IMG/VR virus record: IMGVR_UViG_3300042340_000194
Span: 1-64,000 of that record
Length of the DNA stretch: 64,000 nucleotides
From: a virus
Direction: 5' to 3' (one strand)
Shown: in pieces, positions 7,004 through 39,438 of the stretch
Numbering within the stretch: the first letter of the stretch is position 1
How the letters are laid out: each line of letters starts with the position of its first letter
Program-made: the position numbers and the translations under genes
The notes under the pieces: generated by a model
Seen by the model: the letters and a program-made list of their open reading frames with translations, nothing else
What the model was told of the DNA's origin: nothing
Databases searched by the model: none

Positions 7004-7008
7004 ATAAT

Positions 7009-12089: not shown

Positions 12090-12575
12090 TTAGGACGACA
12101 AAATATTACCAGTTGGGGGTAGATTACCCACGCGGTAGGACGATAGAACACCTTTAGGTACTTGTTGTACAACAGCATCAAAGGGGTTACGGAGATTTAT
12201 TGAACACTTTTGATCATTCTGGGGACCTCCGCTACAAGCCCATATCTGTGTTAATGCTGTGGTGCCTTCGGTGGGCTCTACACCTTCGGCGGTAGTGATT
12301 ATTACAGTTTGTATTTCTACTAACCAACCAGATAGGATGGCTTCGGTAAATAAAGATACTGTTAGCTCGTTAGGTACAGTAACTAATCCGCCGGATGATG
12401 TGGCACCACCTCGTTTGGATGATGATCCTGAAACCCCAAAGGGGGCGAATGTGTAGTAAGTACCTTCATACAGTCTGGCTTTGTTGATAAAATAATTTTG
12501 AAATGCTCTAGCCGGGATATAGTTGCCAGCTTTATCCACGAAGCGTATGTATTCAGCAAAACTGGATCTACGCAT
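12090..12575 (-). CDS. minor tail protein (gpL / DUF1833-like)
   Basis: This 161-residue protein has the closing pattern of DUF1833/gpL-type proteins: NPFDAVVQQVPKG near residue 133, then LSSYRVGNLPPTG. A central Cys pair (WACSGG and QKCSIN, about residues 112-125) may bind metal or a cluster, as in gpL. It lies directly downstream of the tape measure (shared base 12575), the canonical place. It probably forms part of the tail tip hub. Confidence 0.72.
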   Translation of the reverse strand: MRRSSFAEYIRFVDKAGNYIPARAFQNYFINKARLYEGTYYTFAPFGVSGSSSKRGGATSSGGLVTVPNELTVSLFTEAILSGWLVEIQTVIITTAEGVEPTEGTTALTQIWACSGGPQNDQKCSINLRNPFDAVVQQVPKGVLSSYRVGNLPPTGNILSS

Positions 12576-15500
12576 TAGGTTAGACCTAGGGCTCTGCGGA
12601 CATTGGGGTCGAGCTGCATACCACTATAGGCAAGGTCGCGCCCCTGGTTGGCGGCTTCTTGCACGCCCTGCCGGAACTCCTTCACGGTGACATACTCGAC
12701 ACCATTGATTGGCTGCGGTTCGTAGCGGATGTCTATGGCACCTCCGGGCAGGGACATCGGCCTCGGGGGAGCGGGGGGAGCCAGTGGGGTCAGGGCCGCA
12801 CGGGTGTTGCTGAACATCCCAGCGGTGGCGTCGGCAGGCAGGATCGAGCCGGGGCCCGAGGGGCTGAATAGTTCAGGGCCCCGTTCACCGACGATGTAGG
12901 AACTGGAGGGGAGGACGGGGCCGCCAGAAGCGCGGAAGCCTCCGAAGGTCTTGCCGAAGATGCCCAGCCCGCCGCCACCGAGCAGCCCCCCGAACCCGCC
13001 AAAAACACCACCCAGGCCCGCGAGGACATTCTGGGTGCCACCTTTGCCGATCTGGGAAAGGCCACCGAAGATAGTAGCCGCACCGGTCGCGAGAGTAACC
13101 ATCCCCCCGAGTACGGTCTGCAGACCAGTTGCTGCTTGGGTGGTAGCGGGGGCGAAGTCTTTGATAGTGTCGCCCAGGCCGGTTAGATCCGTATTGAGGG
13201 TTGTGATTGTAGAGCCTGCGCTCGTGGGGGCGAAGGCGTCGAAATAGCCGGCCTCGGGGGAGAAGCCTTTAGGGTCTAGGCCACCGAAGGTGGAGTTTGG
13301 TCCGGGGACAATGTTGTTTGTAGGATTTGCTGCAATCGCCAAAAGTGCTGCGGTATTCTCACGGGTAGCTATAGTGTTGTCTACTGTAGGGTTGGAAACA
13401 TCAGCACCAAAGAACTTAGCAAACATTTTGGTCATATTGTCTTCCATCGGCTTTAAGGACATATCCATAAACTGCTCCATGACACGCTCAGTCAGAGATT
13501 GACTAAAGGAGCTGGTAGCTTCTTTTATATCACCTCCAGATATAATAGATTTGAATACACTACGGAACCCTCCGCTAAATTCTTTGGCTAGCTCAGTACC
13601 TTTAGCCCAAGCCTCATTTTGTTTTTTCAGGGCTTTATCAAGAATAGCCAGTTCTAATGCAGCGGCGCGGGTAGCTGCAGCAAAAGCTGCAATCTCTTTC
13701 TCTACTTGACTATCAGACATACCTGGATTATTTTTCTTATAGTCCAAGCGATAGGTGGCTATGGATTCTTCTGCGCTATTAAGCCGTTGCCCTTGAAGAT
13801 CGTCTGGGTTTATACGAAGCCCTCTGAGACGGCCAGCTATAGAGATCTTTGCTTTTTCTATGTTATACCCAATATCGCGCACATCAGCTTGCACTTTTTC
13901 TATGCGAGTAGTTTCAGACGTAACAGCAAGAATTTCTTGACGTGTCTTTAAGTTAGTTCTTAGTATTTTTTCTTGCTCCGCGTAATAAGTATTTGTCTTT
14001 TTAATAAGTTCAGCTTTTTGTGTTTCAGTTAACACACCTCCTTCTGCAGTACGTTTTTCGTTTATAGATAAAAGTGTGTCTTTTCTGACTTTTTCCAGAG
14101 CTACTAGTTTCTGAGCATTATCAATAGTTAAGTCTAGCTCTTTAGGGTTATAGACTTGACTAGCAGCTTTTTTAATATTTTCTAGTGCAATCTTAGCATT
14201 ATTGAGTTCTATTGTGTACTGTTCAGTGCTTTGTATAGGCAGTGCATTTTTTAGGATTGCCTCAAACGCATCTTTTGTTTCAGCTTTGATTAACTGTGCT
14301 TTAAGGTCTTCTATTTTACCCATTTGAGCTTCCAAGCTTCTAGTGATCTTCTCCTGCTCGGAAGCTTGAGTATTCTGTATTTTAGCTAAATCTGGTATTA
14401 CCGGGGCGGTAGGGGGTGCAAGGTTTTGCTTTGCCGAGGGAGTGTCTCTGACTTTCCCATCAGTCCCTACCCACGCCTGGCCGTTCCAAGTGACGGGCTT
14501 GCCATTGAGGGTACTTTTTTCGCCAGGAGCCCTCCCACTGACCATGGTTGGCCCCATGCTTGTCCCTGTGGCTGTAGAACTGGCTAATCCATGTAAGAAT
14601 TGATTCCCAGTAGTAAGGGATTGAGCGACATAACCCCCACCTCCATCTGTCCACCTCGGGGCACTAGCAGGCATTGGGATCAATGTCCCTGCTGGTAACG
14701 ATATGTCAATAGCATTACGACTTTGTCCGGGTCTACGATTTCTTGTTGAATCGTGAGCACCTTGTTCAACGGCTAACCGCCTCCTTAGTTCCCGTTGATC
14801 AGTAAGATTTAGTATGTTTTTATTACCGGGCTCTAGTTTAGCAAGATTCGGTAGTTCCATGTACTCTACCCCTGACTTTTGCAGGGATAAGACTATGGCT
14901 AGTGCTTCCTCAATTACTTTCTGCTTGTTAGGTCCGCGTATATCAAGATGGGGTCCAGAAGAATTACCGGAAGATCCAACGCGGAAGCCAGAACTGACAC
15001 CTGGGGCGGTCATTGGACTAGCCCCACCACCTGTAGAATTTCCGGTTTCTCTGGCTTTCTGCTCCAACGCAGCCTGCTTCACTCTGTAATCTGAGACTTG
15101 CTTCTCGTAATCTCCGATTTTTAGACGTAAAGCTGCGATGTTCTTCTCCGTCTCATAACGATAATCAGCTATAGATTTCTCCATGCTATTGATTTCGATC
15201 TGCATCTGCCGGCGATTATCTTCAATCGTTTTCTCTCCCCTCATCTTAGTTGCAAGATATTCGTTAATACCTTGAGTTACACTGCGGCGCACCCCTTCTT
15301 GGCCTTCTAAGAGTTTGGTGTTAAGCCGCTCCGCAGCTTTAATTCTAATGTCACCCTCTAAGCTGATAATATTTGCAGTCTTTTGTAACGCCTGTTGACG
15401 CAGTTGGAACATATTATTCTCGTGTGCGCGTTCAAGGTCGCGTAATTGTTTACTAATATCAATTTTCTTTTGGCTAAGGATTTGGATGTTAGACTCTTGC

Positions 15501-18055
15501 TGTTCTAAATCTTTTTGATTAGCGATACGAGTCTGCTCTGCTTCTAGCTTGCCTTTCTCTTCTACAAGCTCTTTCATTTTCTCCGCCTGCATCGTTGTCC
15601 AGTCTGCATTAGGAGTAAAAGAGTTTAGAATAGCCATGCCTAACTCTTGCCAGGAGTTAACACCTCTAGTGGCTATGTCATAGTTAAGATCATTTATGGC
15701 TTTGCTAGTTTCTTGGATTTTCTTTGTTAATTCATCCCATCTGCCATTTACCGTAGCCTCATCCAGCTCTTTTGCTTTTTTAGCTGCGTATGAACTACTA
15801 TCTCCAACATCTTTATAGACAGTAGCTAAGCGCTTAAGCGCGAGTTCTGTTTTTGTCTGAGATGCAATTTCGTCATTTCGCCGCTGGAAGCGCCCAAAAA
15901 GGTCTACTGCAATGGTAACCGCTACTTGAACAAGTGTCATTATAGCTAAAAACTTGAAAAAGCCTAGTAGTTGAGTTCCTATAAAACCGCCTATTGAACT
16001 GCCTAGAGTTTTTATACCATTACCGACGTTCTCTGCTCCTTTCTTTGCCGCGTTCCCAACATCAACAGCACTGAATTTAAGTTTCTCTAAAGCAATAGCC
16101 ATTCTAATAGATTCTATTTCTACATCAGTAGCTGCTTGGTTTGCCCCTCGTCCTATATTTCTAAAAGTAGCAGCTACTTCAAGAATAATTATCTGCAGTT
16201 TAGCAAATTGTGGGAATATCCTTGCAAAAAACGAGGATATGCTAATCAACACTGTGCTTATAGTTTGAGATACTAAAGCTCCTATCCTGATCGCAGTGGC
16301 TATTACTAAAGTCCCTAACTCTAGTATTTTAGTAAGCGTAAATCCAAGTCCTTGGGCTATAGCTGCTATAGCTGAACTGACCCAAGTGCCAACTTTTGCT
16401 AGACCTGCCCCTATGGCTGCTATAACACTGTCAAACCCTCGCTTAAAGGCTACAAGACTCTGGATTACTGATGGGACAGTCATCCCAATTCTAATCATAC
16501 CATTTACACCTATCTTTTCCAGTACCGCGAACTGTGCGGTTAGCTGACTAAGATACTGAAATAAGGGCTGTTCTATTAGCTTCCCATAAAGAGTTAGCAG
16601 CGTAGAAACTGCAGGAATTACTGTGGCGTTAAGTACAGTAGCCAAGTTAGTGAACGAGTTTACAAGAATTTTTAATTGCTCGAATCTAAAGCTTGCGAAT
16701 CCTTCAAACAGTTCTTTCAGTCCTGAACCAACCATTACAAACGCCTTAATCATCTCATCTGTAAACTTGGCAATAGTAGGCCGTAGTTTCTCAATCTCTT
16801 GTTGAACTCGCAGAAACAAATCCGTTGTAGCTTTATTAACATCATCGAATACCCTCTTTTGCGAGTTGTCATCGAATTTCTGCAGGCTCGGGGCGGCCAT
16901 TGCTCCCCCGACCAGCCCTTGACCAAGGGCGGCCCCAGCTCGGCCCAGACCATCTGCGATCTGCATAGTCGGTTTGACGACCAGAGACATGCGCCGGTAG
17001 ACCTCCCCCAGGCCATCGAGCAAGGGCTGCAACATGGGTGCCCCGAGTGCGCGGCCCATTTCCTGCTGGATTTCTTGGATGTTGGAGGTGATCCCAGCAA
17101 AGCCCTGCGCTTGAATCTTTTGGCCGGCGGTGAACGCCGCTAGTTTCTTTGTAATAAACTCTACTAAATCTCCTGTCTGCTTCGCTTTTTGGATGTCTTT
17201 GTTTGTAATTCCTAGGGAACGGGCTAGGATTGAGTTGTTGTCAATGTCCCCACGGAGCATCGAGCCGACTTCTTGGACTGCTAGTCCAGGATCACTCATG
17301 CCAATAGTCCCTAGAGCTGCGCTAAAGCTAAGGGCGAGTTTTTTAGCATCTTCGATTGAACCGCCCACCTGGCCAATCTGGCTAGATACTGTGCCGAATA
17401 CTTGAATAATTGCTTCAGAGGTGGTCCCTGCTATGTTTAGTGATTCTCTACGAATATCTTCAATAGCTTTTTGAATAGGCCCTTTGAGCGCAAGCACGCT
17501 GTCTAACGGATTAGTTAGCTCAACCCCATTCCGAAGAACCTTATTTGTGGCAGCTATGGTAGTCTGAGTTTGCAGCATTACTTGCTGTAATCTGACTTCT
17601 CTACCTATGGTTTCCGCGAACATCCCGCCGTAAGCGGATTTTAATATGTTGACACTTTGAGTAATACCGAATATAGTAAAGCCTAGGCGGGCTAGACTAC
17701 TAATAAGAGTGTCAGATGCTAATAATGCTCCTTGGAGACTAACTGCTAAGGTTTTGCCTGGAGTAGCCTGGCTGAGCAAAAGCGCGGCTTTTGCGGTTGT
17801 TCTAAAAGTGTTCCCTAGAGATATCCCAATGGATTCAATATCCATCAGAGCCGGAACTACGTTCCTGGCGATGCCGTAGGTTATTTGTAGAGCTTTACCT
17901 ACATCTTGGATACCCTTGACTGTTTCGCTTAAACTCGGAAACTGAATATTAACTTTAATCGGGGTTTGTAAATTTTTTAACTTTCTATCTATACTATCAA
18001 TATCCTTATGCGTTGCGCTGGATTCACTCTCGATTCTAATTGTATAATCAGCCAC
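12575..18055 (-). CDS. tape measure protein with embedded M23-like domain
   Basis: This 1826-residue protein sets tail length and is ejected first during infection. Long coiled-coil stretches (about 770-1000 and 1240-1500) flank several hydrophobic segments between about 530 and 720. The C-terminal SGGPVLPSSSYIVGERGPEL block (around residue 1715) is typical of lambda gpH-like tape measures. Residues about 1015-1160 resemble a lysostaphin-type (M23) peptidase: GPHLDIR near 1034, AIDISLPAGT near 1113, and FLHGLA near 1152. The usual HxGxD motif is RNAID here, so one zinc ligand may be missing and activity is uncertain. The chaperone genes lie immediately upstream, as expected. Confidence 0.9.
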   Translation of the reverse strand: MADYTIRIESESSATHKDIDSIDRKLKNLQTPIKVNIQFPSLSETVKGIQDVGKALQITYGIARNVVPALMDIESIGISLGNTFRTTAKAALLLSQATPGKTLAVSLQGALLASDTLISSLARLGFTIFGITQSVNILKSAYGGMFAETIGREVRLQQVMLQTQTTIAATNKVLRNGVELTNPLDSVLALKGPIQKAIEDIRRESLNIAGTTSEAIIQVFGTVSSQIGQVGGSIEDAKKLALSFSAALGTIGMSDPGLAVQEVGSMLRGDIDNNSILARSLGITNKDIQKAKQTGDLVEFITKKLAAFTAGQKIQAQGFAGITSNIQEIQQEMGRALGAPMLQPLLDGLGEVYRRMSLVVKPTMQIADGLGRAGAALGQGLVGGAMAAPSLQKFDDNSQKRVFDDVNKATTDLFLRVQQEIEKLRPTIAKFTDEMIKAFVMVGSGLKELFEGFASFRFEQLKILVNSFTNLATVLNATVIPAVSTLLTLYGKLIEQPLFQYLSQLTAQFAVLEKIGVNGMIRIGMTVPSVIQSLVAFKRGFDSVIAAIGAGLAKVGTWVSSAIAAIAQGLGFTLTKILELGTLVIATAIRIGALVSQTISTVLISISSFFARIFPQFAKLQIIILEVAATFRNIGRGANQAATDVEIESIRMAIALEKLKFSAVDVGNAAKKGAENVGNGIKTLGSSIGGFIGTQLLGFFKFLAIMTLVQVAVTIAVDLFGRFQRRNDEIASQTKTELALKRLATVYKDVGDSSSYAAKKAKELDEATVNGRWDELTKKIQETSKAINDLNYDIATRGVNSWQELGMAILNSFTPNADWTTMQAEKMKELVEEKGKLEAEQTRIANQKDLEQQESNIQILSQKKIDISKQLRDLERAHENNMFQLRQQALQKTANIISLEGDIRIKAAERLNTKLLEGQEGVRRSVTQGINEYLATKMRGEKTIEDNRRQMQIEINSMEKSIADYRYETEKNIAALRLKIGDYEKQVSDYRVKQAALEQKARETGNSTGGGASPMTAPGVSSGFRVGSSGNSSGPHLDIRGPNKQKVIEEALAIVLSLQKSGVEYMELPNLAKLEPGNKNILNLTDQRELRRRLAVEQGAHDSTRNRRPGQSRNAIDISLPAGTLIPMPASAPRWTDGGGGYVAQSLTTGNQFLHGLASSTATGTSMGPTMVSGRAPGEKSTLNGKPVTWNGQAWVGTDGKVRDTPSAKQNLAPPTAPVIPDLAKIQNTQASEQEKITRSLEAQMGKIEDLKAQLIKAETKDAFEAILKNALPIQSTEQYTIELNNAKIALENIKKAASQVYNPKELDLTIDNAQKLVALEKVRKDTLLSINEKRTAEGGVLTETQKAELIKKTNTYYAEQEKILRTNLKTRQEILAVTSETTRIEKVQADVRDIGYNIEKAKISIAGRLRGLRINPDDLQGQRLNSAEESIATYRLDYKKNNPGMSDSQVEKEIAAFAAATRAAALELAILDKALKKQNEAWAKGTELAKEFSGGFRSVFKSIISGGDIKEATSSFSQSLTERVMEQFMDMSLKPMEDNMTKMFAKFFGADVSNPTVDNTIATRENTAALLAIAANPTNNIVPGPNSTFGGLDPKGFSPEAGYFDAFAPTSAGSTITTLNTDLTGLGDTIKDFAPATTQAATGLQTVLGGMVTLATGAATIFGGLSQIGKGGTQNVLAGLGGVFGGFGGLLGGGGLGIFGKTFGGFRASGGPVLPSSSYIVGERGPELFSPSGPGSILPADATAGMFSNTRAALTPLAPPAPPRPMSLPGGAIDIRYEPQPINGVEYVTVKEFRQGVQEAANQGRDLAYSGMQLDPNVRRALGLT

Positions 18056-20933: not shown

Positions 20934-21310
20934 AAGGATTTCGCAGCTTTTAGATTTTTAGCCAATAACTGAGCGTACATGGCGGGAAGTTCCGCGATAG
21001 GGTCTCGGGTCCAGGGCCGTCCGGGGAAACGAACGCCCTCGGGGGAAGTTCCGCCTTCATGGACTTCAGTGGAGTAGTCAACTTCCCAAGTTATCTCAAA
21101 CCCTCCTGTAGGTAATAGGCGTAGTACCGCGCTGTCTCGTAACTTTCCTGTAGAGACAATATCTCGGATTTTCGGGTTACTTGGGTAAGCCCATTCAGGG
21201 GATTCGATTTCTTGACGACATCTTTCATTAAACCATTCCCCGAGTTCGACTATGGTTTTTGTTTGGGCCGCTTCAAAATCATCAGCGATTGAACGGGTGT
21301 TGGCTATCAT
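20930..21310 (-). CDS. head-tail joining / neck protein (HK97 gp10-like)
   Basis: This 126-residue protein has features of HK97 gp10-type neck proteins: an N-terminal amphipathic helix, KIRDIVSTGKLRDSAVLR (about 46-63), an EITWEVDYSTEVHEGG segment (about 73-88) and RPWTRDPI near residue 98. These proteins sit between connector and tail. It overlaps both neighbours by a few bases, showing coupled translation. Confidence 0.7.
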   Translation of the reverse strand: MIANTRSIADDFEAAQTKTIVELGEWFNERCRQEIESPEWAYPSNPKIRDIVSTGKLRDSAVLRLLPTGGFEITWEVDYSTEVHEGGTSPEGVRFPGRPWTRDPIAELPAMYAQLLAKNLKAAKSL

Positions 21311-21705
21311 TAGCCACCTCCGGTTACTCGGAATATGCCGGATATGAGTTGCTTAAGGTCTGGGCGTGAAGCTGCGTGCATGCTAAGGTCAAATACAAGC
21401 TCAAAACGCCCTTCTACACCGTTGAGGGTGGCTAGTGCTTGAGATCCGTTTATGATGCGTGGGTCTAGCGTGCTCGGGGAAAGTAGTCGCCCGGATACGT
21501 TGTAAGTGGTTTGGTCAGTACCTGTAGATGACTTCCAGTTTGGTGGTTGAATAGCAAGATGGGCTATGTATTCAACTGTCTCTTCGTTGTAGTTATAGTT
21601 GCCGGTATCTGTGTTTATAGTTAGTGTGGTGCCGGGTACTTGGAATGCAAGTATTGCGTTACTCCAAGGGCTGTAGGCGGCAATAGTTTGGGTATTGGGG
21701 GGCAT
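21310..21705 (-). CDS. head-tail completion protein
   Basis: This 131-residue beta-rich protein (NTDTGNYNYNEETVEYIAHL around residues 31-50, then a LNGVEGRFELVFD strand pair) lies between the neck protein and the fibre genes. Size, order and fold pattern suggest a head closure or completion protein, but the family is not recognised. The 69 bases upstream (21706-21774) hold no gene that I can support. Confidence 0.58.
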   Translation of the reverse strand: MPPNTQTIAAYSPWSNAILAFQVPGTTLTINTDTGNYNYNEETVEYIAHLAIQPPNWKSSTGTDQTTYNVSGRLLSPSTLDPRIINGSQALATLNGVEGRFELVFDLSMHAASRPDLKQLISGIFRVTGGG

Positions 21706-21774
21706 GGTATCAAATCAGACATTGCTTAATTGAGCTTTCTTTATCATTGGGGTTTCATGGTTGCTGCTCTCCGC

Positions 21775-21903
21775 TCACGGCTGCAACCTCCCCCGCATCC
21801 ATCGCTGCAGGGACGGCACCGCCGTCACCAGATACCAGGCAGCCGGGAACAGCGCCAGGTGCCAGGCGGTCATAAGGGCGAGGTCGGCGGGGAACAGCAT
21901 CAT
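21775..21903 (-). CDS. small single-span membrane protein (42 residues)
   Basis: The start ATG (21903) overlaps the stop of the upstream fibre-associated gene as ATGA, and the ORF ends at TGA 21775. The protein has one hydrophobic stretch (about residues 8-29, LALMTAWHLALFPAAWYLVTA) and a basic C terminus with Arg residues. The coupled start and compact structure support a real gene. Function is unknown, with a holin-like or fibre-linked accessory possible. Confidence 0.45.
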   Translation of the reverse strand: MMLFPADLALMTAWHLALFPAAWYLVTAVPSLQRWMRGRLQP

Positions 21904-22400
21904 GGCGAAGAAAACGAATCCAACGCTTCGATCAATTCCGTTATGAACTGGCCCGGCAAATTACACCGAGTAATCAGCGCCAGCAGCTCTGACGCAAGGT
22001 CACTTTTTTCTGCTACCGGCAGAGTGGAGCCTCCCAGAATCCACACGATGCAATCTAAGTAGTCTTTGTGATCTCCTCGATCTTGAAACGAATTTAACGC
22101 AGCAGATATGTTCATCGCGCCATACTTTGCTTCCGGAGTTGACGAAAGCGCTGCCGCAACAATGCTGACGTAGCACGGATCGCGCAGTCCTTCCCGGTAT
22201 TCGATCCAGTCCGGCGGGGCGGGTGGTGCCGGCAAGGCCATCCATTCGGCCAGGTCGGCTTCGCTGGGCATAGGGTAACCCATGGCGTCCGCATCCCAGT
22301 GGTAAATCTCATCGGCTGTGCCATTAAACAAAACTCCCCAATCCACAAGCGACACCGAATGCGGGAAACGAGCGGCGATAGCTGCAGCAATTCCTACCAT
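21900..22400 (-). CDS. fibre-associated protein (possible fibre chaperone)
   Basis: This 166-residue acidic protein lies just downstream of the long fibre gene and overlaps it by seven bases. Residues 30-70 carry IYHWDADAMGYPMPSEAD and a Pro-rich WMALPAPPAPPDW stretch, similar in style to tail fibre assembly proteins and C-terminal fibre chaperones. The helical second half has no known motif. It shares the higher GC content of the fibre gene, suggesting the two moved together. Confidence 0.55.
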   Translation of the reverse strand: MVGIAAAIAARFPHSVSLVDWGVLFNGTADEIYHWDADAMGYPMPSEADLAEWMALPAPPAPPDWIEYREGLRDPCYVSIVAAALSSTPEAKYGAMNISAALNSFQDRGDHKDYLDCIVWILGGSTLPVAEKSDLASELLALITRCNLPGQFITELIEALDSFSSP

Positions 22401-24949
22401 GACGGAACCTCAATAGCCATTAGCTGAGTGGTATCAGTAGTGGGGTGCCCATAAACGTTTGTTACGTTAGCTGATTTGTACGCTTGTAACTTTATCCTTG
22501 ATGTTGCCAATAAAGCGACCAAAGCGTAGGGCTGGCATGAAGGGTAGCAGGAAGCTGCAAAGGCAGTCATCTCGTGCGCCGTTATAGCTACAGATGTATT
22601 TGAATTAAAAATCTGGCCAATCAATCGCGTAGCCGAGCCAGTAGTATTGTCCCACATTAAATGCGCCATAAGAATGTACTGCCCAGGCCGAAAATTTATT
22701 ATTCTGGAGTTAGCCGTATCTGCCATCGCCCCAGTATTATCAACATCAACACGAGAAAACGTCACGTCGGTCATCGTTAAATTCGAGATTGTCTGGTTTG
22801 ATGTCAAGGAGATCTGGCATTGCATAGGCTTGGTCACCCCAGAAAGCTTCAGCCATCCAGATCCGTCGCAATAAAGCACGGCAGACTCACCGGCCCACAT
22901 GATACGCCTATTCTGACCATTTATCAATTCAGAGGCATTGCCGCTAATTGTAAATCTCCTAGTCGCCGCGTCACTAATGCGAAATGATATAAACTTGCCA
23001 GCGTTACCGGCTGCAGCTGGCAAAGTTACCGTGTAATCAGCAGTTGTCCCAGATATAAGATGTTGCCTGCTTATTGTTGCTGTGGCTGTTGTAGTTACTG
23101 CAACTTCAGAACTTGCAAGAATGGCAAGGTAGTCAGAGCCACTGTCGGTGGCAGTGACGGTGAGTGCGCCCGCAACGATCGACAAACCAGAGCCCAGGGG
23201 ATAGACCTGCGGCGCCCCGGTGCCGCTCTCGCGGCCTAGCACGCCGGCCGTCATGGTCAGCCCGCTGGAGCCGATTGCCCCAGCAAGCGCCCGGCCAGCA
23301 ATGTTGCCGACAATCTTGTTAATTGCTTGAAGGATTGAATCTGTGGCGGCAACAGTTCCCGCCTCAGCAACAAAGCCCGTTAGTGCCGATCCAATCGCTC
23401 GGGCTGCGGCAAAGAATTGGTTGCCGCCGGTTTCCGTAAGGTCGCCTGTGCCACCAGATGTGGCCACCGTGGCTAGGCCCGAAACCTGGCCCGCCGAAAT
23501 CGTCGGAATATCGCTAGCCACCAGAGATCGAAACGTCGGGGCTGCTGCCATGCCGGTCGCAGGGCCAGCCCATACCAAGTTTGCACCCTGGGCCGCCAGC
23601 GTGGCGGTCAGGGTCCCCGCCGTGGTGACGGGCGACCCGGTAACACTGAACAGGGCCGGCAGGCTCAGCCCAACACTGGTAACAGTGCCGCCATCAGGGC
23701 CACCATGGCCGCCCGTGACGCTGATGGTTTGGTTGGGCCAGGTGCCGGTAATGTTTACGTGTGTGCCTGCCACCAGCCCAGGGGTGGCCGTTCCCGTGCC
23801 GCCATTGGCGATCGACAGCAGCCCAGACACCCCCGTCGCCAGGGGGAGCCCAGTGGCGTTCACCAGGCCCAGACTGGAGGGAGTGCCCCCTGCCCCGTCA
23901 AACAGCACGGGGGCCCCCGTGGCGCCGGCGTTCACCGCCAGGGCATTGGCAATACCGGTTCCTAGGCCGCTGATGGTGCTCAGGGCCTGCGTGCCGGTGT
24001 GGTTGCTTCGGGCCAGGTAATAGGCCGCGTTGTTTGCCGCCAGGGCCGTCAGGTTTGCGGAGAGAGGCTGATAGCTGCTGGCTGCGCTGACTGTGGTCAG
24101 GTAGGCGGCCAGCGTTGAGGCCAGCCCTGGAGGCTGCACCGCCGTCGCGGCTAGGGCCCCCTGGGCAGAGCTGGCAAAGTCCCCCGCCGACGCCAGCGCC
24201 GCTGAACCCAGCTCTAGGCTTACGCGCCCAGTGGCAGCATTGAGCCCGGTAGCCCCGCCAGACCACTGCCCGCGCATTGAGTAGGCCGTATCCCAGTTGG
24301 TCTGGCTGGTGTTGCTCGGCAGGCTGAACCCTGCCGGCAGGCCCAGCGTGAGGGTGACGCTGCCGCCCGTGGTGGTGCTGCTTGTGCTCCAGCCGCTAGG
24401 AACCGACAGCGCAACCGCTTGCACCGCCGCTTCAGCCTTTGCCCGGTTGCTGGGCGCCTGCAGCCCCGCCAGCTCAGCAGTCGCCAGCGGAACATCTGCA
24501 TCCTCTCCGGTACTGGATGTAAGCCTAAAGCCGTCTGGCCCACGTAGAGTTACTGAAAGGTCTGTCCCTACTGTGGGTTGGGGCGACGGAGTGATTGAGT
24601 CAGGTGTAGTCGATGAGTCGTAGAAATCATAGTAGCTATCAGTAAACCCTACTACTGCAATAGAATCTCTAAGTCTTTTATACTCTTGTCCATAAAGAGT
24701 GGAATCAAGACCTCCGCCTAGAGCTGCCCCCGAGGGTGCTCCTACTTGAGACCCGATTTGACTAATACGAGATGCGAGAAGATGTGCGGATAGATAGGCA
24801 ACCCCATCCATCCGCATACCGCCGTTTCCCCATACTGAGGCTGGAGTTTCGCGCTCAGCTTGCGCAATAATGGGGGTGATTACTCCAGCAGGCTGCTCCC
24901 CGAACTCGGGGAAACGCTCACAGAGGCTGGTAGCGTCAAACAGCGCCAT
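22394..24949 (-). CDS. head-tail connector (DUF4054-like) fused to long fibre with jelly-roll tip
   Basis: This 851-residue protein is a chimera. Residues 1-115 match the DUF4054 type of head-tail connector: FPEFGEQPAGVITPIIAQAE, a WGNGGMRMDGVAYLSAHLLAS helix region, then YGQEYKRLRDSIAVVGF. Such proteins normally end near residue 130. Here the chain continues into a Gly/Ala/Ser/Thr-rich fibre with repeats of the SGLGTG / GTVTSVGLSLP / GGTGT kind. It ends in a compact domain (about 710-851) whose strand pattern resembles C1q/TNF-like jelly-rolls. Codon use shifts to GC-rich after the connector part. It may form a neck whisker or collar fibre. Confidence 0.78.
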   Translation of the reverse strand: MALFDATSLCERFPEFGEQPAGVITPIIAQAERETPASVWGNGGMRMDGVAYLSAHLLASRISQIGSQVGAPSGAALGGGLDSTLYGQEYKRLRDSIAVVGFTDSYYDFYDSSTTPDSITPSPQPTVGTDLSVTLRGPDGFRLTSSTGEDADVPLATAELAGLQAPSNRAKAEAAVQAVALSVPSGWSTSSTTTGGSVTLTLGLPAGFSLPSNTSQTNWDTAYSMRGQWSGGATGLNAATGRVSLELGSAALASAGDFASSAQGALAATAVQPPGLASTLAAYLTTVSAASSYQPLSANLTALAANNAAYYLARSNHTGTQALSTISGLGTGIANALAVNAGATGAPVLFDGAGGTPSSLGLVNATGLPLATGVSGLLSIANGGTGTATPGLVAGTHVNITGTWPNQTISVTGGHGGPDGGTVTSVGLSLPALFSVTGSPVTTAGTLTATLAAQGANLVWAGPATGMAAAPTFRSLVASDIPTISAGQVSGLATVATSGGTGDLTETGGNQFFAAARAIGSALTGFVAEAGTVAATDSILQAINKIVGNIAGRALAGAIGSSGLTMTAGVLGRESGTGAPQVYPLGSGLSIVAGALTVTATDSGSDYLAILASSEVAVTTTATATISRQHLISGTTADYTVTLPAAAGNAGKFISFRISDAATRRFTISGNASELINGQNRRIMWAGESAVLYCDGSGWLKLSGVTKPMQCQISLTSNQTISNLTMTDVTFSRVDVDNTGAMADTANSRIINFRPGQYILMAHLMWDNTTGSATRLIGQIFNSNTSVAITAHEMTAFAASCYPSCQPYALVALLATSRIKLQAYKSANVTNVYGHPTTDTTQLMAIEVPSW

Positions 24950-24953
24950 CGGC

Positions 24954-25397
24954 TTAGCTGCCTCCGGTTAAAGTATCAATGCGTTTTTGAATAGCAGTGC
25001 GGACAGGCACGCGCTGGTCTTGCTCCAGCCAGGCTGCTAGACGCTGGAGATCATGAGTAGTTGTAATGACCTTGGTTGCATCTGGTAGTTTGAGATTAGC
25101 AATGGAGACATCCTCAGGAACTTTAAGGTCAGCTTCACTTAGAACTTCTTTGACCTCATCGCTTTCCATGACGCGGAGGGCGCCTAGATCCAAAAGACGG
25201 AGTGCATGGGGTCCGTGCGTTCCTGCTTTGATACTCTCCCAGTCGTCCTCGGGGATATTGTTGATCCCTTCGCGGATAGTCACACGAGTGGATTCCTCCG
25301 TTTCCTTAGAGATCGTGGTGTAGGTAATAGAACACCCATCCATAGGGGGGTTCTCCAGTGCAGGGCTGTAGAAAATGTTGACTCGATCGTGGCTCAT
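24954..25397 (-). CDS. head-module protein of unknown function
   Basis: This 147-residue acidic protein lies between the capsid and connector genes. The first half is beta-rich (SITYTTISKETEESTRVTI), the second helical with DLQRLAAWLEQDQRVPVR. No family is recognised. The position is typical of capsid-completion or accessory head proteins. It starts at ATG 25397, 33 bases after the capsid stop. Confidence 0.6.
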   Translation of the reverse strand: MSHDRVNIFYSPALENPPMDGCSITYTTISKETEESTRVTIREGINNIPEDDWESIKAGTHGPHALRLLDLGALRVMESDEVKEVLSEADLKVPEDVSIANLKLPDATKVITTTHDLQRLAAWLEQDQRVPVRTAIQKRIDTLTGGS

Positions 25398-25430: not shown

Positions 25431-26345
25431 TCAGGGTTTGTCCATCGCCATGACGGATCGGGGGAAGTAGATGGCCACACCACCGTGGCGGGCGTGGGCG
25501 GGAACGGTATATTCCAGGCCCTGGAGTTGAGGAGGGAAAAACTCCAGTGGCTGGGGGAGGTGCATCTCCAGCTTGTCCGGGTTACGCTCATAGGTCATGA
25601 TCCGGTCTTTAGACAAGAACCCGCCGGATTTAGAGGCAGTAAGCTCATTGATGGGTTCAATGTCCTTAATAACCTCGTTGGTATCGAGGAAAAACTCCAT
25701 GACAGTGGTGTCCGAAGCCGTCCCGAGCTTCATTGTGGAGATCTTTCGGAACACATTGTACGGAACCAACATGGTGTCTGGTTGTTCTTTCATGTTGCTG
25801 TTCTCGACGATCCGGGTTACCGGTTCATTGAGGAGTTCGAGAACTTCATCGGCGGTGATGCCGGACGTGTCGAACCACTTATCAGGTACGATCTTGTCGA
25901 GTTGATCGGAGTTGAAGAAGCCGCGAAGGCCGGCAGCAGGATCTCCGAAGTAGGAAATGCGCTGCATAGTTTCTTCATAGACGCGACGCACAGCGTTAGC
26001 GCGGCGTTGCTCCAGGTTTGTGTTGGGGACTTCAGCCGCAGCTCGCAGCTCCTGGACGGTGTAGCCAAAGCTGGAACCGTAGGATTCAACCTTGTGGGTT
26101 ACTTCCTTACGGAACACATCAGCGCGGGGGAGATCCTTTGCCTTATCGGCAATTCGCCGCATGGAGCCTTGTTGGTCGTAGATCCTATATGTGTAGGAAT
26201 CCTTCCCATTAGACACCTCGCTGTTAATGGGGAGTACACTAGCGTATTTGATGTCGGCATACTCGACTTCAAAAGCCCTAGTGATGATATGCTCAAGTTC
26301 CCTCGCGAGGAAGAAACCGTGGTTGTCGAGGCGTTGGTTGGACAT
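25431..26345 (-). CDS. major capsid protein (DUF2184-like)
   Basis: This 304-residue protein matches the DUF2184 type of HK97-fold capsid proteins. Features are an N-terminal helix (FLARELEHIITRAFEVEYAD), the DSYTYRIYDQQGSMRRIAD segment (about 49-67), a long spine-like helix (TNLEQRRANAVRRVYEETMQ, about 108-127) and a closing VPAHARHGGVAIYFPRSV strand. No separate scaffold gene is obvious. Cement and DUF2213 genes lie upstream, as in related phages. A segment of it (ITADEVLELLNEPVTRIVEN) recurs in a plus-strand gene at 30273-30614. Confidence 0.87.
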   Translation of the reverse strand: MSNQRLDNHGFFLARELEHIITRAFEVEYADIKYASVLPINSEVSNGKDSYTYRIYDQQGSMRRIADKAKDLPRADVFRKEVTHKVESYGSSFGYTVQELRAAAEVPNTNLEQRRANAVRRVYEETMQRISYFGDPAAGLRGFFNSDQLDKIVPDKWFDTSGITADEVLELLNEPVTRIVENSNMKEQPDTMLVPYNVFRKISTMKLGTASDTTVMEFFLDTNEVIKDIEPINELTASKSGGFLSKDRIMTYERNPDKLEMHLPQPLEFFPPQLQGLEYTVPAHARHGGVAIYFPRSVMAMDKP

Positions 26346-27089: not shown

Positions 27090-28400
27090 TCATCGCCTCT
27101 TAGAAGCAGTCAGCGGTTTCTGCCAACTATTGTTGGTTTTTTGCTTGTAGCTATCGGAGGATGCTGCAGCATCGCGCCGTTGAACCCCGCGAAGGGCCGT
27201 GCGCAGCTTGCCGGTGGAATCGGCAGCATCGGTTCGGGGAGCTGGTTCGGCCTCGGGGGGATCTTCGGCATCAAGCGTGGCCAGGGCCCCCTCAACCCGG
27301 CCCCTCATTTGGGCGACTTCCATCTCCTCATCTGGGGCCTCACCGAAGATGTTTTCGTATGCTTGGACATACAACTCATCGGCCTCGATGCCGTCGAAGA
27401 CGAAATCGTCTTCAAAGGCGGGTGCGAGGAGTTGAAGAGTGTCGAGGCGGGCGGCTACTAGGGTGTCCAACCGGGAGGCTGGGATTTGAGCGAGAACCGC
27501 GTCGATGTTGTCTTCATCGAGGTGAATCTCACTGGGTTCCCCGGCATCAATCGTGGCCTGGAGCCCATCGGCCCGCCCTTCGGCGATCTCCTTCTCAGCC
27601 TCCAGGTCGGAAAAATCACTCTGCAGGGTATTTAGCTTTTCCTGCAGAGTGGAATTAGCAGTGCGCAGTTCAGTAAGGGCCTTGCTGGAATCCCTCACAT
27701 AGGCTTGCACCAGCGGAGCATATTCAGAGGCAACCTCAACATCGACTCCATCGAGATTGATACGGGCCATAACGGGGTTCGCGGGGGGTACGGGCTCGGG
27801 GGAATCGAGGAGTGCTTGATCAAAAGATACCGCTGCCGTAGAATCCATTCGATCTAACAGCAACCTGACTTCTGGGCCAGCACGTCCTTTAGGGACAATG
27901 GCGATGTGGTTGACGCGGATATTGCGTTGGACACCGTCATAGGACTCGCCTGATGGTGTTTGACCGGGGGTAGGGTCATAATCGACTCGGTAGCCGGCGG
28001 ATACTTCTACAGCGTGATCGGGAGAATCTTTACGTTGGATGTTGTCGATGGATTTTTGGTCAGTGACAAGAAGCGCGACTTCAACAAAACCGTCGCTGAA
28101 GTGGACATGCGAGCCGGCATGCCCGATTTGATACATCTTTGTATTATCCGCATCAAGGAGCTGCGGAGGATGACGCCAAGTAACTGGCTTCATCCCGAAG
28201 GATGCTAGGGTTTCTGGCTTTCCTACTTCCTCTTCCGGGCGGTACTCAGTTTCGACCCTGCCGTCAGCGCGGCGATATTTCTGGAGGCCAGTGCGGGCGG
28301 TGCGGGCCCGGACCTGGAGGTATCCCGACTCCGGGTCGATCTTGCAGCCGACGATAGGCAGCGAGAGGAAGTCGTATCGGGTAGCTGTTGCTAGGCTCAT
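27090..28400 (-). CDS. DUF2213 prohead protein (putative maturation protease/scaffold)
   Basis: This 436-residue protein has a DUF2213-like domain in residues 1-190 (ATRYDFLSLPIVGC, then VTWRHPPQLLDADN, HAVEVSAGYRVDYDPTPG and HIAIVPKGRAGPEVRLL). DUF2213 is regarded as a likely prohead protease. The C-terminal half is acidic and coiled-coil, resembling a fused scaffold (LTELRTANSTLQEKLNTLQ onward). Position upstream of cement and capsid genes fits this. If it is a protease, it is the natural candidate to trim proteins packaged in the head. Confidence 0.78.
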   Translation of the reverse strand: MSLATATRYDFLSLPIVGCKIDPESGYLQVRARTARTGLQKYRRADGRVETEYRPEEEVGKPETLASFGMKPVTWRHPPQLLDADNTKMYQIGHAGSHVHFSDGFVEVALLVTDQKSIDNIQRKDSPDHAVEVSAGYRVDYDPTPGQTPSGESYDGVQRNIRVNHIAIVPKGRAGPEVRLLLDRMDSTAAVSFDQALLDSPEPVPPANPVMARINLDGVDVEVASEYAPLVQAYVRDSSKALTELRTANSTLQEKLNTLQSDFSDLEAEKEIAEGRADGLQATIDAGEPSEIHLDEDNIDAVLAQIPASRLDTLVAARLDTLQLLAPAFEDDFVFDGIEADELYVQAYENIFGEAPDEEMEVAQMRGRVEGALATLDAEDPPEAEPAPRTDAADSTGKLRTALRGVQRRDAAASSDSYKQKTNNSWQKPLTASKRR

Positions 28401-28436: not shown

Positions 28437-29486
28437 CTAGTAGCTTTTTAACAAAGCGGTCTCTAAACTTCTGTAATAACCTTTTACAACTTTGTCTACG
28501 TGATCGGTTTCATAAGTGCGCAGCGCGTTTTCTAGAGGATCCCATTGAGGAGCCCAACGCCTTTCAAATGTTTCTACTGCGTATTCTGATAAACCTACGC
28601 GGCGTGGTACTTGAGTAAGCTCGTTGATGAAATCGCGGGCGCTAGTTCGATTTTCTGTAGCGAACTCAGCTAGGCCGAAGTCGATGAATTTAAGGCTTCT
28701 GGTTTTTGGGTTAAACATTATGTTTTTTAAGTGCCCATCGTTGTGTACGAGACCACTAATGTGTAAAGAGCGATAGAGGTCTAACATTTGGCGTTTTAAC
28801 TGTAGTGGTGCGGTGTATTTAAGCGAGAAAATACTAGAACTTACCCCATGCGTAGATAAAGGGGAATAATTGTTCAAGTGCTCCATGACCAATACCCGGT
28901 CAGTAGCTTTGTATAGCTGAGGGGATGGCACATTATTGATGTTAGCGTGCCTTAGTATCTCACCTTCAGGGAGTAAGCTTTCTGTGGGGCCGCTCAGGAA
29001 TTTATTAGGTGTCCCCCCGAGGTCGTTGTTCTTTAAGTATTTTATACCGTATTTATTAGACGGGTGGACAACATAATTACCGTAAGCACCTTGGCCCCCT
29101 AGACATCGTGGAGTCGGAACAAAGTCATCTTCTCTAATCCAGTGATCAATCTTGGATGCTGCACATGCAATTGCGTTGGCTTTCTTGTTATCTTCAAAGA
29201 CATCCCACTGTTTGCCGCGCTTCCGCGCCTCAGCTTCGATCCGATCCCAGTCCTCACCAGGGGCGGTGAATCCCTTCCAATCGGGGTCGCGGCGAACGAA
29301 ACGGCGGGCGGCGGAGATGCCTAGGGCTGCGATCCCGGCCCCAAGGGCGACTTTGCCGATCAGGCTCGGGGTGATTGTTGGATTAGAACTGGGCGCAGTG
29401 GTCTTTTTGGAGCATTTCTTGTTGTCTGGTATGCCTGACGCACCGCATTTTTTGTCGAATCTTAGTGAAGCGGTGGTTATGGGCAT
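28437..29486 (-). CDS. kinase-like protein with Cys motif and hydrophobic segment
   Basis: This 349-residue protein has three parts. The short N terminus carries the shared Cys motif (R9-x-DKKCGASGIPDNKKC, C14 and C25). A hydrophobic Gly/Ala segment follows (about 40-62) and ends in Arg residues. The rest is a protein-kinase-like fold: a Gly-rich loop GGQGAYGNYVV with Lys in GIKYLK, a helix-C type Glu (EGEILRHA), the catalytic loop HNDGHLKN and the metal-binding DFG. All key kinase residues are present. It is the first gene of the effector-like cluster and is divergent from the plus-strand island. Substrate unknown. Confidence 0.82.
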   Translation of the reverse strand: MPITTASLRFDKKCGASGIPDNKKCSKKTTAPSSNPTITPSLIGKVALGAGIAALGISAARRFVRRDPDWKGFTAPGEDWDRIEAEARKRGKQWDVFEDNKKANAIACAASKIDHWIREDDFVPTPRCLGGQGAYGNYVVHPSNKYGIKYLKNNDLGGTPNKFLSGPTESLLPEGEILRHANINNVPSPQLYKATDRVLVMEHLNNYSPLSTHGVSSSIFSLKYTAPLQLKRQMLDLYRSLHISGLVHNDGHLKNIMFNPKTRSLKFIDFGLAEFATENRTSARDFINELTQVPRRVGLSEYAVETFERRWAPQWDPLENALRTYETDHVDKVVKGYYRSLETALLKSY

Positions 29487-29549
29487 GATTACCGGTGGTA
29501 TGTATGCTATTCTAGCGAGGCACCTGCGTGGACACTTGTCTTGGGTTTT

Positions 29550-30014
29550 ATGGATAGAGAGACTCTGGTCAAGCTAAATGGCGATGTGGCGCAGTTAAAA
29601 GGTATTATGCAGCCTTTTAATGATGCTGCCGCTCAGGCCAATAAAGGTTTTATTGAGCTTGGGCGTACTCTGAACTTAGAGGCCCAACGGCGCAATGCCA
29701 TCTTGCGAGCATTGTTTTATTCATCGGTCAAGGCCGCATCACCTACTATTGGGCGTAAACGTCGCGCCCGCAGGGCTAGGGGAAGGCGGCTAGAGGTCAA
29801 GGCAGGAAATAAAACCAATAACGAGTTTCAGTCATACGACAGTGTCTGTCCTCCGATTAGTTCAAACCATATTGCGATCAGCGAAGATGGCGAACTCAGT
29901 TTTGTTTACCGTGCTCATATTGAGCACACATCAGGAGTGACTCCTGATGGGTCAGAATATAAGGCCATTGTAAGATCAATAAAACCAATCAGTGCTAGGA
30001 TTAAGGCGTTATGA
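29550..30014 (+). CDS. plus-strand island protein with basic TIGRKRR module
   Basis: The ATG at 29550 (MDRETLVK) gives 154 residues. The N-terminal 60 residues are helical. Residues about 65-80 form a strongly basic patch (SPTIGRKRRARRARGRRL) that recurs almost unchanged in the protein at 30273. The C-terminal half is beta-like, with SEDGELSFVYRAHIEHTSG. No family is recognised, but the basic patch could bind nucleic acid. It opens a plus-strand block of four coupled genes, opposite to its surroundings. Confidence 0.6.
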   Translation: MDRETLVKLNGDVAQLKGIMQPFNDAAAQANKGFIELGRTLNLEAQRRNAILRALFYSSVKAASPTIGRKRRARRARGRRLEVKAGNKTNNEFQSYDSVCPPISSNHIAISEDGELSFVYRAHIEHTSGVTPDGSEYKAIVRSIKPISARIKAL

Positions 30015-30280
30015 TATCCCCACTCCTCATGATAGACTTTGTAACCGTACAAACCACTGTAGCATTTGAGTTGTACATGGACGAACCCGCTGGTGGGTCT
30101 AGCCTAGAGGATCTAAATACTAGGATCTTAGTATTTAGAGAGAAGCTTATCGAGATTTATGGTTGCAATCCTGCAATTCTACGTGTAGTGGAACACCCTT
30201 TCTGGATACTTAATCCAGTGGCGGATCAGCCATTTAATCTAGTTAAACCACGCTCTTATTTTTCAAACTGCCATGTTTAA
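30011..30280 (+). CDS. small hypothetical protein
   Basis: This 89-residue protein is coupled to the gene before it by an ATGA overlap and overlaps the next start by eight bases. It has an alpha/beta look (TVAFELYMDEPAGG, then LNTRILVFREKLIEIYG). No family is recognised. Its place between two genes that share the basic module suggests one transcript of four genes. Confidence 0.55.
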   Translation: MISPLLMIDFVTVQTTVAFELYMDEPAGGSSLEDLNTRILVFREKLIEIYGCNPAILRVVEHPFWILNPVADQPFNLVKPRSYFSNCHV

Positions 30281-30614
30281 GGACGACCTAGGGATAAACA
30301 TACAAAATGCTGCTTGCAGTACTACAGGCATGACTGCTGATGAAATGCTTGAACTACTAAATGAGCCGGTTACGCGCATCGTAGAGAACTTTAACATGAG
30401 GGAGAAACTGGACACTATATTGCTCGATTCTAAGCAGTTTGCGTCTATATTATCTGAACGCACCAAGGCGGCAATGAATCGCGTCTATCACAATACGAGA
30501 CCTAACTATCTACCTATCTTTGTTAACGCCTCCCCCACTATTGGACGTAAACGCCGCAACCGTCGCGCTCGGGGGCGTAAACTAGCAGCTAATCGCCAAA
30601 AAGCTTGTGCTTAA
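30273..30614 (+). CDS. chimera of a capsid-protein fragment and the basic TIGRKRR module
   Basis: This 113-residue protein has residues 18-52 clearly related to the phage's own major capsid protein: TTGMTADEMLELLNEPVTRI here against TSGITADEVLELLNEPVTRI there, continuing through VEN-x-NM and DT. The corresponding DNA has diverged, so this is not a very recent copy. Residues about 85-103 are the basic SPTIGRKRRNRRARGRKL module shared with the 29550 gene. It overlaps the Dcd start by eight bases. It could be a capsid-assembly modulator, an RNA- or DNA-binding capsid ligand, or a decaying recombination product. Confidence 0.62.
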   Translation: MFKDDLGINIQNAACSTTGMTADEMLELLNEPVTRIVENFNMREKLDTILLDSKQFASILSERTKAAMNRVYHNTRPNYLPIFVNASPTIGRKRRNRRARGRKLAANRQKACA

Positions 30615-31212
30615 GAACGACATCTGGATAGGACAGCAAGCTGCCGCTGGGATGATCGAGCCCTATCAGGAATGTCTGTTGCGCCGCATTGAAACCTGGG
30701 AGGATAGCATTCTACAAGTAAAGCCGGTGTTGTCTTTTGGTGTTAGCAGTTATGGCTATGACATCCGGCTGTCGGCTCAGGAATTTATGACCTTCCGCCA
30801 TGTCCCTGGCACGGTGATGAACCCCAAGCGGGCCAATCCCGCCAACCTGGAGCCGGCCCCTCTCCATCAGGACGAGGATGGGCGCTACTTCATCCTGCCG
30901 GCGCATACCTACGGCCTCGGGGTAGCTCTGGAGAAATTGCGGGTGCCGCCGAATATCACTGTGATCTGCTTGGGGAAAAGCACTTACGCCCGGTTGGGGA
31001 TCATTGTGAATACCACGCCGGCAGAAGCGGCATGGGAGGGGCACCTAACCCTGGAGTTCAGTAATTCTTCTGGTGCTGATTGCCGTATTTATGCCGAAGA
31101 GGGTATCTGCCAACTGCTTTTCTTTGAGGGGGATCCCTGTGAAACTACTTATGCGGATCGGAATGGTAAATATCAATATCAGCCGGAACTGGTGACATTA
31201 GCAAGGGTTTGA
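30607..31212 (+). CDS. dcd: dCTP deaminase
   Basis: This 201-residue protein is close to the usual Dcd length. It would deaminate dCTP to dUTP, feeding dUMP to thymidylate synthesis. Motifs include SFGVSSYGYDIRLS near residue 43, the conserved GKSTYARLGIIVNTTPAEAAWEG block with the catalytic Glu region (about 123-145) and the closing YQ. It starts at GTG 30607 and overlaps the preceding gene. It is the only recognisable enzyme of the plus-strand island and complements ThyX (49527-50291) and MazG. Confidence 0.92.
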   Translation: MLKNDIWIGQQAAAGMIEPYQECLLRRIETWEDSILQVKPVLSFGVSSYGYDIRLSAQEFMTFRHVPGTVMNPKRANPANLEPAPLHQDEDGRYFILPAHTYGLGVALEKLRVPPNITVICLGKSTYARLGIIVNTTPAEAAWEGHLTLEFSNSSGADCRIYAEEGICQLLFFEGDPCETTYADRNGKYQYQPELVTLARV

Positions 31213-31242
31213 TTCTTACTTTATTGTGAAACATAATTAAGG

Positions 31243-32133
31243 CTATCGCAGCCGATTTCCCACACGTCTTGTCAGGCGGGGCGCATTACCTAAGTACCTA
31301 TCCCAGAACTTGTTGTAGGCTTGCTGTGTGGGAGCGTTTTTAGTAAGCCCGGTCTCCTTGATCAGATCAGAGAATTTCCTATGTTCTATAGGATCTAGTT
31401 TATTCAGCATGTAGTTAATGTGGTCCATATCATTGCGTAGACCTGAAGTAGGCATGAATTTGATCGGCTTGGCGTAGCCCCAGTCGATCAATTTAACATC
31501 GCCATCCTTGACCATAACATTACCCAGGTGCATGTCTCCATGTGCGTACCCGGCCTTATGCAGCTTCGACATCTCTAAGACAAACTGCTTCGCGTAGCGG
31601 GCCTTCTCCTGCTTGGTTCCGCTTTCTACGATTTTGGTTAAGTTCTTGTACCCGTCCATGTACTCGATTTGAGTTATAGATCGCGCCGAATCGACAGCTA
31701 GGACATTCGGAGTGTTGATGCCCTTATCGTGTAGTTTGGCCTGCAGCGTGACTTCACGCAGGAACTGTCGCCGCCCGACAAGGGTTTTCTTGAAGTTTGT
31801 CTTGAAGACTGATTTACGATCCGGGGAGACGTGAATGGCCCCGGCATAACCTTTGGCTAGGAACTTACTACCTTTGGGGAGATTTTGCGGAGTTGATAAT
31901 GCAATAGCTTCCTTGAAGGCACGTTCAATTGCAGGAGTCCATCTTCTCCTGTTGAGCACTCCTACAAGAACGACTCCTGTAGCTACGGCTGCGGTGGTTG
32001 TTCTCGGGGTTATGATACCTCCTGAGCTGCTTGCAGGGGCTACGCTTTTTCCACACTTCTTGTTCGCTGCAATGCCGGATTTCCCGCACTTCTTATCCAG
32101 GCGCAGCCGCGCTGCGGTCAGTTGCAATTCCAT
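31243..32133 (-). CDS. second kinase-like protein with Cys motif
   Basis: This 296-residue protein is built like the 349-residue kinase. It has a short leader, the Cys motif (R11-x-DKKCGKSGIAANKKC, C16 and C27), a hydrophobic stretch (about 42-58, TTAAVATGVVLVGVL) ending in RRR, then a kinase/phosphotransferase domain. Domain motifs are a GYAGAIHVSPDRKSVFKT loop and Lys, Glu in FLREVTLQAKLH, the catalytic AHGDMHLGN and IDWG in place of DFG. Key residues are present. The domain is only distantly similar to the first kinase, so the leader is shared more closely than the enzyme. Convergent with dcd, 30 bases apart. Confidence 0.8.
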   Translation of the reverse strand: MELQLTAARLRLDKKCGKSGIAANKKCGKSVAPASSSGGIITPRTTTAAVATGVVLVGVLNRRRWTPAIERAFKEAIALSTPQNLPKGSKFLAKGYAGAIHVSPDRKSVFKTNFKKTLVGRRQFLREVTLQAKLHDKGINTPNVLAVDSARSITQIEYMDGYKNLTKIVESGTKQEKARYAKQFVLEMSKLHKAGYAHGDMHLGNVMVKDGDVKLIDWGYAKPIKFMPTSGLRNDMDHINYMLNKLDPIEHRKFSDLIKETGLTKNAPTQQAYNKFWDRYLGNAPRLTRRVGNRLR

Positions 32134-32444
32134 TTCCGTAACGACTTATTGATCCGTGAATCCTGGTTATTAGCGGTTTTCGCGCTGGTTAGCTTACGCT
32201 TCATTCCCGACATGCGGGCACAGAACCTCCGTCGTCTTTCTGCTCTCGCTGATCCGGGTTTGAGCTTGGAGGGGTCGGTCGTTACCGCGAGGGAGAGCTT
32301 CGAGCCTGGATGTTGCTTGCGGTAGGAGGCGATGCCTGCGGCGTTAAGGCCGCCCTCGGGGTTTTTGCCTTCCTTGCGCTGCCAAGCGGGGGATTTGTCA
32401 AGGCGGATGGTTAGAGGTGTGAGTAGTCCCACCTCAGTTACCAC
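32118..32444 (-). CDS. DUF6321-like basic protein
   Basis: This 108-residue protein matches a small phage family by pattern: SPAWQRKEGKNPEGGLNAAG, PSKLKPGSARAERRRRFCAR, then MSGMKRKLTSAKTANN with DSRINKSLRKW. It is strongly basic and probably binds nucleic acid or a virion component; function is not established. The start is GTG 32444. Before the domain it has LTIRLDK, like the R-x-DK leaders of its neighbours. It overlaps both neighbouring genes. Confidence 0.78.
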   Translation of the reverse strand: MVTEVGLLTPLTIRLDKSPAWQRKEGKNPEGGLNAAGIASYRKQHPGSKLSLAVTTDPSKLKPGSARAERRRRFCARMSGMKRKLTSAKTANNQDSRINKSLRKWNCN

Positions 32445-33270: not shown

Positions 33271-33302
33271 GGCCTGGGTAGATAGGGATTCTCCCCCTCA
33301 GG

Positions 33303-33881: not shown

Positions 33882-33929
33882 GACGATAATTAAGGATAAA
33901 GAGAGAAAAAGGGAGAGGTGGATGTGTGA

Positions 33930-34181
33930 TTAAGTGACCTCGTCCTCCTCACGAGGTTTGCGAAGAGCTGGGTTATATGTATTAAAACCATTCACGAAGC
34001 CAGCCTTCTCAGCCATACTTTTCATAAAAGGAACTCCCATAATAGAGCCACTGACAATCCAACAGCTAGGCCACCCACCAGGCAGGGTGGGGGAATGTTC
34101 GCAACGGATTAGAAAACCTACGCCGAATATAACTGTGGCTACGACAGGAACAGTCAACACCTTTGGCCAGCGTATTTGCAT
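33930..34181 (-). CDS. small membrane protein, holin candidate
   Basis: The ATG at 34181 (MQIRWPKVL) gives 83 residues. Two hydrophobic segments, VLTVPVVATVIFGVGFLI (about 8-25) and a Gly/Pro-rich one around SCWIVSGSIMGVPFM (about 38-52), are followed by a charged tail ending KPREEDEVT. Size and topology suit a class II-like holin. It precedes the C39-like peptidase gene in transcription order. No other holin-lysin pair is obvious. Confidence 0.55.
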   Translation of the reverse strand: MQIRWPKVLTVPVVATVIFGVGFLIRCEHSPTLPGGWPSCWIVSGSIMGVPFMKSMAEKAGFVNGFNTYNPALRKPREEDEVT

Positions 34182-34200
34182 TTTGATTGGGTGTGGCACT

Positions 34201-39377: not shown

Positions 39378-39438
39378 GCGCGGTCCTGCCTGCTTTCAGT
39401 GTAGCGACGGCCTCGGGGGGCGACAAGAGATGAGGGTC

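Follow-up and report, generated by a model that had tools for sequence, protein, structure and literature searches.

The head-to-tail adaptor (neck-1) proteins of phages have been sorted into classes 1-4 of about 100-310 residues in the Milano paper; they are built on a common helical core, to which individual lineages have added parts such as C-terminal strands and whiskers, and none of them carries a fibre (PMC10491603). The adaptor of cyanophage Pam3 (8hdr/8hds; 131 aa) and gp27 of E217 (155 aa) are present in 12 copies per neck and likewise have no fibre; gp27 ends in a tail placed between portal subunits. Neck fibres are already known. In the lactococcal siphophage TP901-1, the neck passage structure (NPS) forms an elongated fibre at the portal-adaptor level of the neck; it is encoded by a separate gene, has its own N-terminal ring domain, and its attachment to the neck was described as unknown (PMC10747895). 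Lactococcal NPS proteins possess a carbohydrate-binding module at the fibre end. The Anabaena phage A-1(L), a cyanophage, bears trimeric gp82-gp81-gp80 fibres on a gp5 neck ring, but these are separate proteins whose genes are far from the neck genes, and the gp5 ring is 15-fold with a different fold (PMC10966104). The collar whiskers of T4 (fibritin, wac) and the collar spikes of XM1 (gp40) are also whisker-like neck appendages, but they are separate coiled-coil collar proteins and not extensions of the adaptor (PMC10491603). What is new in the locus described here is that the fibre is built covalently into the adaptor, so that its anchor is the adaptor itself in the same chain, and the protein would represent an additional neck-1 class. 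No adaptor fused to a fibre was found in the open-access literature, although such a case may exist.

The window is a stretch of 64,000 nucleotides from a virus (IMG/VR record IMGVR_UViG_3300042340_000194, positions 1 to 64,000). As the original prediction had proposed, a single open frame of 851 codons without a stop runs on its minus strand from 24949 to 22394 (22394..24949), and the fusion is directly seen in a second assembled record, G001, which shows one mismatch to the window over 38,701 bp by BLAST. The fused gene is preceded by genes for the portal (39377-37512), the maturation protease (27090-28400), a cement protein, the major capsid protein (25431..26345, minus strand; Pfam PF09950, E 3e-51) and a phrog_1983 protein (24954..25397, minus strand). 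It is followed by an XkdW-like gene of 166 aa (21900..22400, minus strand; XkdW E 1.1e-4, just under the Pfam cut-off), then by three small genes of the neck, one for a probable major tail protein and one for a tape measure protein of 1826 aa (12575..18055, minus strand; phrog_10574, E 4e-7). This gene order is that of Synechococcus phage S-CBS4, in which the next neck gene comes immediately after that for a 103-aa DUF4054 protein, and in the contigs L035 and L058 the counterpart of the next neck gene (21310..21705, minus strand) also stands directly after a stand-alone adaptor. In all of them the adaptor gene lies between the gene for the capsid protein and this neck gene. None of the genes scanned was recognised as encoding a tail sheath, so the virus is probably a siphophage. 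A search of the record with the A1 profile and PF13262 found no second, unfused adaptor, and the record may be incomplete. Elsewhere in this region, several genes between portal and protease (28437-37515) have a common segment like LRFDKKCGASGIPDNKKCSKK and may form a paralogue family, two of them looking kinase-like (phrog_2361). A tandem array of 20-nt units in about 6.8 copies (39426-39569) lies beside the portal gene, on the side facing the terminase.

Residues 1-113 (24611..24949, minus strand) were identified as a DUF4054 head-to-tail adaptor domain by Pfam, profile and model, in agreement with the predicted DUF4054-like connector. The Pfam score was 30.6 bits against a gathering score of 23.9 (24.3 bits in the genome search), the N-terminal part matched phrog_302 of the head and packaging category, and among PDB entries a profile of 13 relatives reached E 3.4e-9 with the Pam3 adaptor and E 6.8e-4 with E217 gp27. 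A structure model of residues 1-128 (pLDDT 67.8, below 50 from residue 99) was compared with the PDB by structural alignment, and the nine best entries were all phage adaptor or neck-1 proteins with Z scores of 10.5-5.8: Pam3 (10.5), E217 (10.0), T1 (9.4), HK97 gp6 (7.3), FCWL1, XM1, Mu, JBD30 and Bxb1, with the next unrelated entry at 4.7. Foldseek alone listed FCWL1 as a single weak adaptor match (E 0.53), so the evidence for the fold rests on the second structural comparison together with the sequence profile. In this model, which is of moderate confidence, the N-terminal part takes the helical fold of an adaptor.

The adaptor domain was originally thought to end normally near residue 130, but 53 of the 58 distinct DUF4054 relatives in IMG/VR end at 102-113 aa. 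L058, which is 57% identical, stops at 113 aa. DUF4054 or similar proteins of S-CBS4, Rhizobium phages and Aaphi23 are stand-alone proteins of 103-133 aa, the inspected annotated genes of Rhizobium and Haemophilus phages also stand alone, and a scan of bacterial genome contigs yielded no relatives. The stand-alone length of about 100-155 aa, which is a usual and not a defining feature of the family, is far exceeded by the 851-aa protein. In the proposed search for other extended DUF4054 proteins, true extensions proved unusual: among the 58 distinct relatives they occur in only three lineages, namely that of the fused gene (851 aa), L031-L034 (249 aa) and L036 (196 aa).

Sliding identity and the BLAST breakpoint placed an exchange point in the linker (residues 114-128; 24566..24610, minus strand), where DNA identity with the sister strain stops. 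This strain, G002, is mostly 92-97% identical to the window along the overlapping structural region, and its adaptor codons 1-113 show zero amino-acid changes, but it carries unrelated DNA across window 24604 to 21708. Since G002 is homologous up to residue 113, then unrelated, and homologous again at the next neck gene, where sister-strain homology resumes at 96%, a cassette has been exchanged between those points. This allelic exchange is observed directly: the cassette (21708..24604, minus strand), delimited by BLAST against G002, L031 and L032, is replaced as a block in G002, while the phrog_1983 gene, its left neighbour, is conserved in sister strains. The insert of G002 encodes an adaptor extension of ~136 residues with a bead-like end, followed by a 266-aa gene, a 183-aa gene and further genes, and L036 and sister strains also have adaptor extensions and fibre cassettes in this slot. 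Sequence comparison thus indicates that the junction is the exchange point, at which relatives place different fibres; from residue 113 to the next neck gene, sister strains fill the slot with an extension that is short and beaded and with fibre and tip proteins encoded separately. The second gene of the sister-strain cassettes (L031 7775-8572, L036 7602-8390) matches phrog_2647, head decoration; homologues occur in about 300 annotated phages, chiefly those of Mycobacterium and Gordonia. The sister-strain cassette proteins, when compared with A-1(L) gp80-gp82, gave one weak match (E 0.001) and no clear relationship. At the cassette end of the window, a tiny hydrophobic ORF (about 21778-21902, minus strand; …WHLALFPAAWYLVTAVPSLQRWMRGRLQP) has a similar counterpart at the same place in L032. 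A second patch without alignment to G002 (window 7012-7563), possibly another exchange point, lies where two tail genes (5873-7048 and 7009-8274) meet; each of these genes matches phrog_15525, minor tail protein.

Beyond the linker the chain continues as a fibre, as predicted. The shaft (residues 129-640; 23030..24565, minus strand) shows 70-89% identity to separate-chain fibres of contigs L004-L021. The tip (residues 641-851; 22397..23029, minus strand) is 97% identical in L003 and 81% identical in L126, and residues 500-851 are 96-97% identical to L003 and L016. In L003 an XkdW-like gene with 95% identity lies beside the same tip but the downstream genes differ, therefore tip and XkdW-like gene have moved together between unrelated phages. 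The shift in codon composition noted originally was also found, with GC3 rising at the junction from 0.42 in residues 1-113 to 0.66-0.79 in residues 114-400; at the tip it is 0.48. By these sequence criteria the fibre is horizontally acquired, as a mosaic. The predicted jelly-roll end of the C1q/TNF type (residues 700-851) did not find usable support: Pfam gave no such match at E<=10 and no domain at all in the tip, profile comparison of the tip with the PDB gave only noise (E>=0.04), and the AlphaFold model of the tip is all-beta but, with a pLDDT of 43.5, too poor for use. Nor did Pfam give a match in the tip to a carbohydrate-binding module such as that of lactococcal NPS.

The separate-chain relatives begin with an anchor of their own. 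Among fibres with the MTTYN or MPYQEQ anchor, similarity to the window sets in at about fibre residue 82-85, therefore the fusion replaced the fibre's own anchor; in the fused chain, adaptor homology and fibre homology are only ~15 residues apart. In L004-L029, where the fibre is a separate protein with such an anchor, and in L135-L212, the fibre gene occupies the same place among the neck genes, directly 3' of a small connector gene; one relative matches phrog_82, head closure Hc1 (E 7e-4). The body of this head-closure-like connector is conserved, whereas its C-terminal tail varies; against the PDB, the connector and the next neck gene of the window gave only noise. Seven types of connector tail and seven types of fibre anchor were seen, and tail type matched anchor type in all 46 distinct pairs classifiable for both, a count for which the classes were set after inspection, related contigs are non-independent and tight linkage could account for part of the pairing. 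Connector bodies 97-99% identical carry different tails, and bodies about 27-36% identical carry the same tail. As bodies assort freely while tail matches anchor, recombination must have occurred inside the connector gene, with tail and fibre moving together. The sequences suggest that the connector tail is the fibre dock, and separate fibres of unrelated phages would probably dock there. In L191, L192 and L194, connector tails of repeated LLLE-x-G strands are followed by fibres with an LPLTG-x-ELAY-x-VQ-x-GA anchor, which looks like one more dock type. Tips are common to the fused, separate and multi-protein formats: separate-chain fibre ends are matched at 61-66% by the 183-aa protein of L031, and other such ends at 39-47% by the 165-aa protein of L036. 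In annotated phages, tblastn with the head-closure-like connector gave zero matches and with one separate-chain fibre one short match. We give an even chance to the broader view that many phages share a docking code at a neck-fibre locus of the plug-in kind, where a head-closure or adaptor protein exchanges its 20-30 C-terminal residues along with the matching fibre anchor, so that fibres move between unrelated virions. In the window virus the fusion may have taken the place of this dock, with the adaptor ring as carrier.

For the window virus itself, we consider it quite probable that the C-terminus of the adaptor has been extended by an acquired fibre, that the 12-subunit ring displays covalently anchored neck fibres with tips binding on or near the host cell, and that the slot is of the plug-in kind. 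By analogy with the Pam3 and E217 relatives, the adaptor domain would form a twelve-membered ring beneath the portal. From each subunit a fibre chain of ~740 residues would leave outward at the portal-adaptor level, and the chains would probably associate in threes, an inferred number giving four trimers per ring. The original placement of a fibre at the neck is supported by the adaptor model, the missing anchor, the other extensions starting from the same residue and the gene order, from which the position on the virion is inferred. According to a rule of thumb, a tape measure protein of 1826 aa corresponds to a tail of roughly 270 nm; a neck fibre would hardly reach the tip of such a long tail, so extra adhesion is more likely, and the neck fibres are probably whisker-like. 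The C-terminus of the adaptor joins the beta-sheet of the portal clip in Mu (PMC11915804), forms a whisker bridging neck and head in Sf6 (PMC10491603) and inserts between portal subunits in E217 (PMC10329688). An extension of this end would exit close to where portal and adaptor meet, at the level modelled for the neck passage proteins of TP901-1 (PMC10747895). The buried C-terminus in E217 also counts against a neck fibre, because a bulky extension needs some route to the outside. The neck fibres of A-1(L) showed no host binding (PMC10966104), therefore binding is not assured for the window fibre.

Several other explanations were weighed. The fusion might be made and then cut after about residue 113, for example by the capsid maturation protease, leaving an ordinary ring while the fibre is lost or used elsewhere, such as at the tail tip. 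A protease gene nearby and the rule of stand-alone adaptors fit this, but a freed fibre would begin within the shaft, without the anchor of its separate-chain relatives, and three lineages of this adaptor family have extensions; we regard cleavage as unlikely. A simple scan found no internal ATG or GTG with a Shine-Dalgarno-like motif for a free fibre, nor any of the listed slippery heptamers near the junction, and scans for promoters and terminators gave signals at shuffle level. Slightly less credible still is a recent recombination accident of little function, with the extension tolerated or present on some subunits only. An unrelated phage has a tip and an XkdW-like gene with 95-97% identity to these, which dates the last exchange as recent, and dN/dS for this recent pair is 0.59, close to relaxed; against this, a 2.2 kb open frame has been retained, wider comparisons show purifying selection on the shaft (dN/dS 0.25-0.33) and the tip (0.12), and L036 and the sister strains have filled the slot as well.

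An assembly chimera, with adaptor and fibre coming from two different phages, would be conceivable in a viral contig whose fibre segments are common to many phages of the collection. It would require two exact joins coming back to the same genome at 21707, whereas the two records disagree at a single base over 38.7 kb and fibre matches elsewhere differ by at least 3% from the window, which makes a chimera very improbable. Sequencing or assembly error joining two genes was ruled out by G001 and by related alleles in sister strains, whose extensions start from the same residue. A merger of two complete genes through a lost stop codon was ruled out because the anchor region of the fibre is absent. 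Neither of the outcomes named as refuting the original prediction, such an error or an N-terminus without a connector fold, was thus obtained, and its main point is supported.

The attachment of neck fibres is poorly resolved in general. The reading of the fused gene as a fibre-bearing adaptor, a natural fusion, and the connector tail that always matches its fibre anchor point to a testable attachment site. They also suggest that the neck is a site of exchange for likely host-contact parts, remote from the tail tip, which is the usual place to look for host-range determinants.
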